DNA from: a virus
Length of the DNA: 64,000 nt
IMG/VR virus record: IMGVR_UViG_3300035181_001055
Location: 1 to 64,000 of that record
Strand: one strand, 5' to 3'
Shown in pieces: positions 60,549 through 64,000 of the stretch. Within the stretch, counting starts at the first letter, position 1, and each line of letters starts with the position of its first letter. The notes under the pieces are model-generated. The model was given only the letters and a program-made list of their open reading frames with translations. It was not told the origin of the DNA and made no database searches. The position numbers and the translations under genes are program-made.

Positions 60549-61273
60549 TGCCACGTCCAGTATTTTATTACAATACAATCAAGAATTTGATTGTCACTTT
60601 TGGAACTGTCTTTGATGACATCAGATTTATCAACGATGAGGGGATCGAAATAAAAGTCCCTATACATTATGCGCCGAAAGAAAAATTCGTTTCATATTTC
60701 ACTGAAAAGCCAGACTTTGACCAACTCGACATTGAAATTCAGTTACCAAGAATGGCATTTGAAATCAGCGGTCTTAATTTTGCATCTAATAGATTCGTCA
60801 ATCCTTTGAGCAGAATTAAGGATCCAACGATAGATGAAAAGAAGTACATGTTCAGCAGAATTCCGTATGATTTTCAATTCAATCTATATGTTGCCACTAA
60901 GAAATTTGAAGATAGCTTGAAAATTGTCGAGCAAATAGTTCCGTTCTTCACACCTGAATTGAATGTGACGATAAAGGATAAAGATGATTTTAGTCTTCAA
61001 ACTGACGTGCCTATCGTTTTGAATAGTGTCAGCTTCGATATCCAATATGAAGGATCTTATGACACGAAAAGAACTATCATGTGGACACTAGGATTCACAC
61101 TCAAAGGATGGCTATACGGAGATGTGAAGCAACAAAATGTCATCAAGGAAACGATAACAAATCTCACGCAGCTTGACATCAACAATAAATTTGAGACTTT
61201 GATAAGTGAAGTTGTGCCTAGAACTGCAAGCGAAAATGATCCGCACGAAATTGTGGATAGAACGGTCGAATGA
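60548..61273 (+). CDS. 15: Tail terminator / sheath stabiliser gp15
   Basis: 241 aa (T4 272). VFYYNTIKNLIVTFGTVFDD, VPIHYAPKEKFVSYF, LPRMAFEISGLNFASNRFVN and RRIMWTLGF-like WTLGFTLKGWLYGDV match gp15, the hexamer capping tube and sheath. Overlaps gp16 by four bases. Confidence 0.93.
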   Translation: MPRPVFYYNTIKNLIVTFGTVFDDIRFINDEGIEIKVPIHYAPKEKFVSYFTEKPDFDQLDIEIQLPRMAFEISGLNFASNRFVNPLSRIKDPTIDEKKYMFSRIPYDFQFNLYVATKKFEDSLKIVEQIVPFFTPELNVTIKDKDDFSLQTDVPIVLNSVSFDIQYEGSYDTKRTIMWTLGFTLKGWLYGDVKQQNVIKETITNLTQLDINNKFETLISEVVPRTASENDPHEIVDRTVE

Positions 61274-61746
61274 TGGATAAGATTTCACAAGCGCTAGGAA
61301 CTGCTACTGGTGTAGAAAATGATGTTGAAGCTTCAACAAATGTAGCACCATATGTAAAGAATGAAGTTATAGATTTGCCAGATAAATATCAAGAAATTAA
61401 AAACAATCTAGGTGAAGATTATGACTTTGCGAGAAGTAACTTAAGAAAAGTGCTAGAACATGCGATGTCACTGCTACCTAATGCAATATCATTAGCACGT
61501 GAAGCAGAAAGTCCAAGGATTTACGAAAGCACATCGGTTTTTATTAAAACGATTGCTGATATAAATAAAGATCTGCTTGAAATATCTGAACGTAATTTGA
61601 AACAAGGTTCTGGTAATAATAAAATCAATAGTCCACAAGAACAATCAGGTGTCGTAAATAATAACGCGATATTCGTTGGTACAACTGATGATTTATTCGC
61701 AAAATTACTTCAAGTTAGCAACGTAATTGATGATGGAAGTTTTTAG
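61270..61746 (+). CDS. 16: Terminase small subunit gp16
   Basis: 158 aa (T4 164). DLPDKYQEIKNNLGEDYDFA, RSNLRKVLEHAMSLLPNAIS, AESPRIYESTSVFIKTIADI and NKDLLEI match T4-type gp16, a ring-forming helical protein regulating the packaging motor. In T4 genes 16 and 17 overlap; here they are separated by about 713 bp of non-coding DNA. Confidence 0.9.
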   Translation: MMDKISQALGTATGVENDVEASTNVAPYVKNEVIDLPDKYQEIKNNLGEDYDFARSNLRKVLEHAMSLLPNAISLAREAESPRIYESTSVFIKTIADINKDLLEISERNLKQGSGNNKINSPQEQSGVVNNNAIFVGTTDDLFAKLLQVSNVIDDGSF

Positions 61747-61852
61747 ATCTAATAAGAACCTAGACCCTTGCGTCAAATGTTTTTAAAGATCTAGATATTT
61801 CAAGCGATTTAATAGCGTTAGATCTTATCTACACTAGCTAATGTTACAAGTT

Positions 61853-61914
61853 AGCGACTCGCTTCACTCGTCGCTGCGTTCGTTGAATTGACTCGCTTCA
61901 CTCGTCAATTCAAC
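61853..61914. repeat. Twin hairpins with an identical 11-nt loop
   Basis: AGCGAC/GTCGCT (61853-61858 with 61870-61875) and GTTGAATTGAC/GTCAATTCAAC (61882-61892 with 61904-61914) both enclose TCGCTTCACTC. The stems differ, the loops are identical. Confidence 0.8.
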
Positions 61915-62368
61915 TCACGCATGATTTTTATTTGTGCTAAATTTTATCTAGAATTAATTTAATACATAGTATTCCACGGGGAGAGTTACATATCTCTCTG
62001 GCTCCCGTTACCTCGAATGCGCACCAACGCATTCATCGCCTGTGATTCATGATCGACATTCGTTTTGAACGCATGCCTACTGATGAATCCTGCCGTCTCA
62101 ATGTTCTTGACTTTTGCGGATCAGTCTTGAGCATCTACCAGCAAATGCTGTCGGCACCTTTGTCGCCCGTATGGGCCAAGATAAGTAGCAAGAACCAGTA
62201 CTACACTACTTACCTACCGCTTTCTGTCAACAACTGATAACCGTGGTCGTTGATCGCTTAGCTGCTGCCTTAGGCTTACTTGCGGTCTCCCTAATAGGCT
62301 TGTGACTTGAGGGAGTATCACTTAAGCATGATGATCGTACGCGCGTGCGCGCGACTGGTTTGTATCTT
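61853..62368 (-). ncRNA. Candidate large structured early RNA between genes 16 and 17
   Basis: A leftward consensus promoter starts near 62368. The 713-bp region 61747-62459 has no convincing gene. Hairpins visible on the minus strand include an 8-bp pair at 62181-62188 with 62206-62213, GCCC-ATAC-GGGC, CAGC-ATTT-GCTG, a 7-bp GAATGCG/CGCATTC stem, an ACGGG/CCCGT stem at about 61976-62008, and the twin hairpins at the left end. Size, density of short helices and phage context recall large ornate RNAs such as GOLLD or ROOL, but I cannot show homology. The 3' end is a guess. Confidence 0.5.
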
Positions 62369-62374
62369 CTTCAT

Positions 62375-62403
62375 ATTATATTGACATCTCTCCGCGATGT
62401 CAA
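62375..62403 (-). promoter_or_regulatory. Leftward consensus sigma-70 promoter
   Basis: Minus strand: TTGACA (62403-62398), 17 bp, TATAAT (62380-62375). Perfect consensus. The -35 and spacer form the palindrome TTGACATC/GATGTCAA, so a repressor site is possible. Confidence 0.85.
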
Positions 62404-62413
62404 CCTTTTTTTT
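62381..62413 (+). terminator. Rightward intrinsic terminator overlapping the leftward promoter
   Basis: TTGACATC (62381-62388) pairs perfectly with GATGTCAA (62396-62403), 7-nt loop, then CC and eight Ts. It would stop transcripts coming from gp16. Confidence 0.85.
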
Positions 62414-62421
62414 GCGTCACT

Positions 62422-62429
62422 TATAAATA
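62422..62429 (+). promoter_or_regulatory. Late promoter (TATAAATA, perfect) of terminase large subunit
   Basis: Exact T4 late box 30 bp before gp17 and just after the terminator, giving gp17 its own late transcript. Confidence 0.75.
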
Positions 62430-62459
62430 CGAAAGTGTTTAACAATTTTCGTGATCACG

Positions 62460-64000
62460 ATGGCCGCTGTTTCTGATGTTCAGATTGATAGGACAGATCT
62501 ATGTTATAACGGGAATATCAAACTAAAGAAATCTGGTGTTAGCATCCCGTTCACGCAAGAACAAGTCGAAGAATATATCCGTTGCAAACGTGATATTGTA
62601 TATTTCATCAAGAATTATGTCAAGATCGTTTCTCTTGATCATGGACTAGTTCCGTTTGAATTGTATGATTTTCAAGAGGAAATGGTCAACACATTTCGAG
62701 ATAATCGTTATGTGATTTGTTTGCTTGCTCGACAGATGGGTAAAACGACAACGGTTGCTGCTTACTTGCTGTATGAGGCCATTTTCAAGAAAAATATGCG
62801 AATGGCGGTTTTAGCTAACAAAGGCGACACTGCTATAGAAATTCTCGATCGAATAAAGAAGATGTTTGAAGAACTGCCGTGGTTCTTAAAGCCAGGAGTT
62901 CAAGAATGGAATAAGAAATCGATTGAATTGAGTAATGGTTCGAAAATCATTTCTGCCGCAACAAGCTCAAGCTCCATTCGCGGTCAATCGATGAACATCA
63001 TATATCTCGATGAGCTTGCGTTCATTCAAAATGACGTCGAGTTCTTTGCTTCAACATACCCTGTCATTTCTTCAGGTAAGACGACTAAGGTTCTTATCAC
63101 ATCTACGCCTAACGGCATGAACCTTTTCTACAAGTTATGGGCTGACGCTGAAGCTGGTCGAAATAGTTTTGTTCCTAGGAAGTACTCTTGGCGTTACCAT
63201 CCGCATAGAGATGAAAAATGGAAAGAAGAAACGCTCAGAAACATTTCTCAGAAACAATTTGATCAAGAATATGAGCTGGAATTTTTTGGCAGCTCGGATA
63301 CACTTATAAGTGGCAACAAACTTCAGCAATTAACATTCATCGATCCTATTAAAACTGATACTATATTCAATGTTTATGAAGAGCCTGTTGAAGGGAAGAG
63401 TTATGTAGTGACAATTGATGTTTCTGAAGGGATTGGGAAAGACTATAGCGTAATCAATGTTTTCGACATTTCAATTCAGCCTTACAAGCAAGTCGCCGTT
63501 TACCGAAACAATATCATACCACCTTTGATGCTCGTTGATGTGGCGTATAAAATTTTGACTATGTATAATGAAGCTTATTGCATAGTTGAGTCGAATAGTA
63601 TCGGCAAAATTGTTGCTGACGGTCTTTACTTCGACCTAGAGTATGAGAATATGCTCACGTCAAAAGCAAAAGACGGAGAGAATGTGGTAAGCATCAGCGG
63701 AGAAGTTGTTGGGTTGAGGCAAACTAAAAAAACGAAGTTGATTGGTTGTAGTGCATTGAAAACTATGATTGAAAGCGGCACATTAGTAGTTACTGACTTC
63801 ATGACTGTGCAAGAACTTAGCACATTTGTTAAGCGTCATCATACATATCAAGCTGAGGACGGCAAAACAGATGACATAGTCATGACTTTGGTTTCGTTTT
63901 GCTGGTTCACCACTCAACCGTATTTCGAAGAACTGACTGATGTTAACGTTCGAGCTCTTATAAAGAGCAATTATATGAAAATGGAAGAAAACAATCATCT
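62460..64000 (+). CDS. 17: Terminase large subunit gp17 (partial at right edge)
   Basis: 513 codons visible; T4 gp17 is 610 aa. FELYDFQEEMV precedes Walker A ARQMGKTT (90-97); Walker B is IIYLDELAF with D184 and E185; STPNG is the coupling motif. The nuclease domain begins TIDVSEGIGKDYS, with the first catalytic Asp, and DDIVMTLV carries later acidic residues. It packages DNA into the prohead with gp16. No good ribosome site precedes ATG 62460. The frame runs off the window. Confidence 0.95.
   Translation, partial: MAAVSDVQIDRTDLCYNGNIKLKKSGVSIPFTQEQVEEYIRCKRDIVYFIKNYVKIVSLDHGLVPFELYDFQEEMVNTFRDNRYVICLLARQMGKTTTVAAYLLYEAIFKKNMRMAVLANKGDTAIEILDRIKKMFEELPWFLKPGVQEWNKKSIELSNGSKIISAATSSSSIRGQSMNIIYLDELAFIQNDVEFFASTYPVISSGKTTKVLITSTPNGMNLFYKLWADAEAGRNSFVPRKYSWRYHPHRDEKWKEETLRNISQKQFDQEYELEFFGSSDTLISGNKLQQLTFIDPIKTDTIFNVYEEPVEGKSYVVTIDVSEGIGKDYSVINVFDISIQPYKQVAVYRNNIIPPLMLVDVAYKILTMYNEAYCIVESNSIGKIVADGLYFDLEYENMLTSKAKDGENVVSISGEVVGLRQTKKTKLIGCSALKTMIESGTLVVTDFMTVQELSTFVKRHHTYQAEDGKTDDIVMTLVSFCWFTTQPYFEELTDVNVRALIKSNYMKMEENNH

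Follow-up and report, generated by a model that had tools for sequence, protein, structure and literature searches.

A predicted pseudoknotted non-coding RNA between the terminase genes of a phage and its relatives

What occupies the 713 bp that separate the terminase genes terS and terL in the T4-like phage of the viral record IMGVR_UViG_3300035181_001055? The window analyzed here is a 64,000-nt stretch of this record (positions 1 to 64,000). Among 80 IMG/VR relatives of its terL, terS and terL mostly abut or overlap (0–45 nt), and gaps of about 250 nt are present in four, each containing a 46-aa ORF. The window terL itself is ordinary by its PHROG match. An initial annotation of this DNA had described the split as devoid of a convincing gene, and our comparison agrees: the longest ORF inside is 62 aa, and a conserved coding frame, looked for in the relatives, is absent. 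A series of very small protein genes overlooked in annotation is hardly credible as an explanation, since ORFs of up to 62 aa do exist but no frame is common to the window gap and its relatives, and indels do not come in threes.

As judged from comparative sequence analysis, the minus strand of the gap carries the gene for a conserved non-coding RNA of about 400 nt, which has several domains and a pseudoknot and is served by a sigma-70 promoter of its own (Table 1). We regard the existence of this RNA as nearly certain. The contig L001, whose terL is 95% identical, carries the same element; its core is 93.3% identical to the window over 387 positions, while the flanks are 61–63% identical. A pattern scan with a conserved loop recovered a homolog in L085 (69.5% over 440 nt), which likewise lies antisense in the terS-terL interval, and a second scan recovered L090, which is 97% identical to L085 and is cut by the contig end, so that its neighbors on that side are not readable. 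This group, subtype A, therefore comprises four sequences (window, L001, L085, and L090), one truncated, forming two close pairs. The initial annotation had postulated a dedicated minus-strand RNA of about 500 nt; a structured RNA is upheld by conservation and covariation, but the conserved part is shorter, approximately 390–420 nt, running from about 62368 to 61950–61976. Its start is placed from the promoter. No clear minus-strand terminator was found before terS, and the 3′ end is therefore uncertain.

Table 1 Features of the terS-terL region in window coordinates
Feature	Position	Strand	Observation
terS (gp16-like)	61270..61746	+	PHROG 735 terminase small subunit, E 7e-20
Two strong hairpins with a repeated loop, outside the conserved RNA	61856..61921	+	Stems vary with compensation in L001
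Predicted structured non-coding RNA, conserved core	61960..62368	-	Homologs in L001 (91%), L085 (70%) and L090 (72%); covariation
Hairpin P9, last conserved RNA element	61976..62008	-	3/5 inner pairs double-compensated
Hairpin P8	62014..62035	-	5/9 pairs double-compensated
Hairpin P7	62044..62089	-	GAUUCAU/AUGAAUC to GACUCAU/AUGAGUC
AUCAGUA within P7, possible alternative partner of the P4 loop	62078..62084	-	Altered in L090 together with leader and loop
Domain P6 (UGCCG/CGGCA) with two inner hairpins	62091..62156	-	Inner hairpins: four double-compensated pairs
Hairpin P4	62181..62213	-	Two double-compensated pairs
P4 hairpin loop ACUGGUU	62193..62199	-	Partner of the leader; alternatively (62194-62200) pairs with 62078-62084
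Domain P3 (CCGC/GCGG) with inner hairpin UCAACGAC/GUUGUUGA	62217..62285	-	Inner hairpin: two double-compensated pairs
Hairpin P2 with nearly invariant 17-nt loop	62287..62315	-	CUCCCU/AGGGAG to CCCCCU/AGGGGG
5′ leader strand AACCAGU of the pseudoknot	62354..62360	-	Pairs with loop 62193-62199 in 4/4 sequences
Sigma-70 promoter TTGACA-17-TATAAT of the RNA	62375..62403	-	Exact match
TATAAATA, T4-type late promoter candidate for terL	62422..62429	+	Upstream of terL; count not above chance
terL (gp17-like), leaves the window at its edge	62460..63998	+	PHROG terminase large subunit; ATG at 62460

Searches of the 126.7-kb record, itself probably incomplete, by blast, nhmmer, and covariance model detected no second copy of subtype A, and the other long gaps of this record contain small ORFs or tRNAs. 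A further tRNA cluster with a sigma-70-like promoter lies near the end of the record (G000:124300-124974). Scanning 84,980 genomes of bacteria and archaea for the pattern returned ten matches, none homologous, and hence no prophage or host copy was found in that set; similar DNA among phage and plasmid records amounted to chance matches only. The surroundings of the RNA differ among its carriers. In L001, the interval from the RNA to terL (L001:3483-4279) contains a truncated 250-aa terL paralog together with a weak RNA fragment (E 0.07), as if the RNA-terL block had been tandemly duplicated and then decayed. The corresponding interval of L085 (L085:7530-8384) encodes a protein of 284 aa that looks secreted and has a weak PEP-CTERM sorting motif, which is odd for a phage structural region. 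On the other side, short strong hairpins with GAA/UUC-type loops stand between the RNA and terS in the window (61856-61921) and in L164, L165, L166, and L171, and are perhaps the end of the terS mRNA; for the window hairpins, the 3′ end of the terS mRNA or a boundary element is likely.

The decisive evidence for the RNA is comparative. In a structure of 88 pairs across the four sequences, listed by hand and chosen with the same sequences in view, 97.8% of cells are paired and 21 pairs are double-compensated. None of 500 shuffles reached this score, and structures slid along the alignment were only 32–43% paired. RNAalifold predicted 117 pairs from three sequences, 23 of them changed on both sides. 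Because the four sequences form two close pairs, the covariation counts few independent events. The initial annotation had pointed to the density of short stems in this region and named covariance in relatives as a check; the stems gain their weight from that comparison, and folding energy by itself stands out only moderately (z −4.4 for 581 nt with the two strong downstream hairpins, −2.3 for the 409-nt core, and −0.9 to −3.7 across members), weak as proof of an RNA and not relied on here. Compensated pairs alone do not tell the strands apart, which would also suit a pac site, an origin, or another DNA element whose palindromes mimic RNA stems; packaging in T4 starts near gene 16. However, the subtype-A alignment holds 27 G-U cells and only 5 A-C cells, which identifies the minus strand as the RNA strand, and together with the promoter conserved in L001 and a covarying long-range pseudoknot this makes a DNA element very improbable.

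The pseudoknot joins the 5′ leader to the loop of P4, and this loop has a second possible partner in P7. Among the 11 differences between L090 and L085, three are a C>U change in the leader, a G>A change in the P4 loop, and a C>U change in P7; these matched changes indicate that both alternative helices are kept. A rough simulation gave 4e-4 for the leader-loop pair alone, a pair that was found by looking. Within one molecule, the leader-loop and P7-loop helices are mutually exclusive. The covariation of the P4 loop with both partners suggests that the RNA switches between two folds, or that one helix forms within the molecule and the other between molecules. For ROOL, covariation revealed a loop-junction contact that turned out to be intermolecular (PMC12286853).

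The perfect minus-strand sigma-70 promoter noticed in the initial annotation is an exact consensus match, and both hexamers are identical in L001, while the 17-nt spacer is only 47% identical. Exact promoters of this kind number 17 in the window against 0.07 expected, so the promoter of the RNA belongs to a real set; the other 16 all lie within the first 42 kb, indicating that the phage uses such promoters as a set. Fifteen exact promoters fall in approximately 23 kb (window 2704-25844) and mark the early region, and many of them begin with TTGACA(T/G)C and finish with TGCTATAAT. A perfect inverted repeat, TTGACATC-7-GATGTCAA (window 62381-62403), overlaps the −35 box and is operator-like, although it is not kept in L001. 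The timing of the RNA may differ among relatives: no sigma-70 consensus was found for the RNA of L085 or L090, and the RNA strand of L085 bears the T4-late-like TATAAATA, with three copies upstream of the RNA on the same strand (L085:7268-7507, minus strand) and five in the locus against 0.8 expected. Late expression is therefore possible in L085, as far as promoter motifs can tell, and the label "early" given in the initial annotation is supported by the promoter in the window and L001 only.

Is this a known RNA? The window gap matched none of the 4227 Rfam 15 models, GOLLD and ROOL included, either at gathering thresholds or at E up to 10. The related subtypes described below likewise gave no match: A, B, and C had none at gathering score, and A and B had no credible match at permissive thresholds. 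Membership in the GOLLD/ROOL class, raised as one possibility in the initial annotation together with the Rfam search, is thus not supported. The ROOL covariance model found no match, nor did that of GOLLD; GOLLD is usually located near tRNA genes, and no tRNA lies within 33 kb upstream in the window. There was also no Rfam match to a known packaging RNA of the phi29 pRNA type, no tmRNA or tRNA found by ARAGORN in the gap or related loci, and no match to the covariance models of group I or II introns, RNase P RNA, or 6S RNA. We found no description of RNAs in the terS-terL gap in the open-access literature searched, and the paper on Ps15, a Stenotrophomonas phage of Menderavirus, does not mention a non-coding RNA.

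The closest parallels are nevertheless large phage RNAs. ROOL, found in phages and prophages, is likewise large and elaborately folded with pseudoknots, has no known protein partner, and shows covarying loop contacts (PMC12286853), but the solved ROOL has 659 nt against about 400 nt here, and the present RNA sits between terminase genes and not beside tRNAs. GOLLD is also a large phage RNA of unknown function; many GOLLD RNAs exceed 800 nt, about twice the length of the present RNA, and GOLLD rises at lysis (PMC12286853), in contrast to the early-type promoter found here. We conclude that the RNA family is real and apparently undescribed: its kind, the large structured phage RNAs, is known, and the family is new. 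The phi29 pRNA offers a third comparison. This RNA of 174 nt has an early promoter and assembles into rings by pairing of its loops. It resembles the present RNA as a phage RNA tied to packaging functions and made from an early promoter; it differs in phage and size, and related subtypes here have copies far from packaging genes.

The terS-terL gap is not confined to subtype A. The closest cultured relatives by terL (52–54%) are Stenotrophomonas phages of the genus Menderavirus, Xanthomonas phage X1, Acidovorax phage ACP17, and Variovorax phage V45v66, and each has a gap of approximately 500–660 bp with no annotated gene, the V45v66 record being without any annotation and having small ORFs readable in its gap. 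Two further structured RNAs, both antisense to terL, were recognized there: subtype B, common to Menderavirus and X1, and subtype C, common to ACP17 and V45v66. Gaps with RNAs are present in L087, L132, L128, L131, L164, L165, L166, and L171; a scan for subtype B provided the additional terS-terL copies in the last four, all antisense. Across ten B sequences, core helices are compensated, one from CGUCG/CGACG to CGUUG/CAACG and another from ACCUG/CAGGU to ACCAG/CUGGU and ACCCG/CGGGU. B and C are probably related, as nhmmer aligns them at the right place and strand (E 0.002 and 0.04) and a CUAAU-hairpin-GURAG motif common to both is seen by eye. Neither has been described previously, as far as we found.

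Subtypes B and C also occur away from the terminase genes. Second B copies are present at 115 kb in Ps15 and X1, a second C copy at 44 kb in V45v66, and L163 and L170 carry B away from terL. The neighbors of the RNAs differ, and no common protein partner was found beside them. Proteins without a Pfam match follow the second RNA copies in L163:4893-5918 and L170:3-557, and by eye they resemble PD-(D/E)XK nucleases.

In the terL tree, the phages with the gap form one clade (ten rows, 100/100 support), and none of the thirteen rows outside it shows such a gap; L085 and L165 were left out because their terL genes are cut or split. The sampled members of this T4-like clade are Stenotrophomonas, Xanthomonas, Acidovorax, and Variovorax phages and environmental contigs, all with an unannotated antisense RNA in the gap, and the cultured ones infect beta- and gammaproteobacteria. 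The gap RNAs thus fall into three sequence subtypes, the window belonging to A. A resembles B and C in gap, strand, and terL clade, in its similar length, and in being structured; neither nhmmer nor a covariance model of the P2-P4 domain of A detected a link between them. A common ancestor of A and B/C is suggested by position, strand, length, and clade; alternatively, one RNA may have replaced another at a favored site.

What would such an RNA do? In our favored reading, the host RNA polymerase would make it at the start of infection, and it would fold on its own into a pseudoknotted body and act in trans as a structural RNA, rather than serve as an mRNA or simply regulate terS and terL as an antisense transcript. 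The P4 loop would switch between folds, or pair both within its own molecule and with another one, in the manner of large phage RNAs that self-assemble. Taken as a whole, this is probably the best explanation. For its central part, a free-standing RNA acting in trans, we see a somewhat better than even case: the RNA has its own promoter, selection acts on its structure, and the extra copies that subtypes B and C have at other genomic sites point to action in trans. Self-association has precedent in large phage RNAs (PMC12286853), and by this analogy the present RNA may self-associate, although we hold that step only tentatively.

A rival is regulation in cis, in which leftward early transcription would keep terS and terL silent at that stage, either through interference or through an antisense tail that reaches terS, and the structure would only stabilize the transcript. 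Every terS-terL copy is antisense, no clear terminator precedes terS, and terL has a late-promoter candidate of its own. However, selection acts on the folded RNA inside the gap and not on an overlap with the genes, and the second copies are not antisense to terminase genes, which leaves this explanation with a low probability. The initial annotation had noted that the RNA would be antisense to gp16 read-through; this is correct as geometry, but as a function it is opposed by the second B and C copies, which point to trans action.

A part or regulator of the DNA-packaging motor, comparable to phi29 pRNA, would explain why the RNA stays between the two terminase genes, a position that is strict in the whole clade, and pRNA too comes from an early promoter and forms rings by loop pairing. 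Such a role is nevertheless of quite low probability, because second B and C copies lie far from terminase genes, terL is ordinary, and A has no detectable similarity to B/C while terL stays more than 50% identical; T4-type packaging motors are not known to need RNA. One form of the trans-acting reading is a decoy or inhibitor of a host or defense protein, made early to protect the phage. The early promoter, the fast change between subtypes, and several copies per genome, as expected in an arms race, are consistent with it; against it, the Rfam searches gave no match that would liken the RNA to one from a host, and we consider it rather unlikely.

The list of large structured phage RNAs is short, with GOLLD and ROOL still awaiting a function; the present work adds one new family. 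The finding also reveals a gene that repeated annotation of the same genomes had passed over. Since the RNA occurs in cultured phages (Stenotrophomonas Menderavirus, ACP17, and V45v66), has a fixed site, and exists in more than one copy, deletion, RNA-seq, and structural work are feasible now. All subtypes might descend from one ancestral RNA gene. They would then constitute a new superfamily of large phage RNAs that self-assemble, with duplicates at other loci and with one loop that pairs by turns inside its own molecule and with a second molecule. We regard this as unlikely on present data; if true, an ancestral RNA gene would mark the clade and would have been kept between the terminase genes throughout its history.
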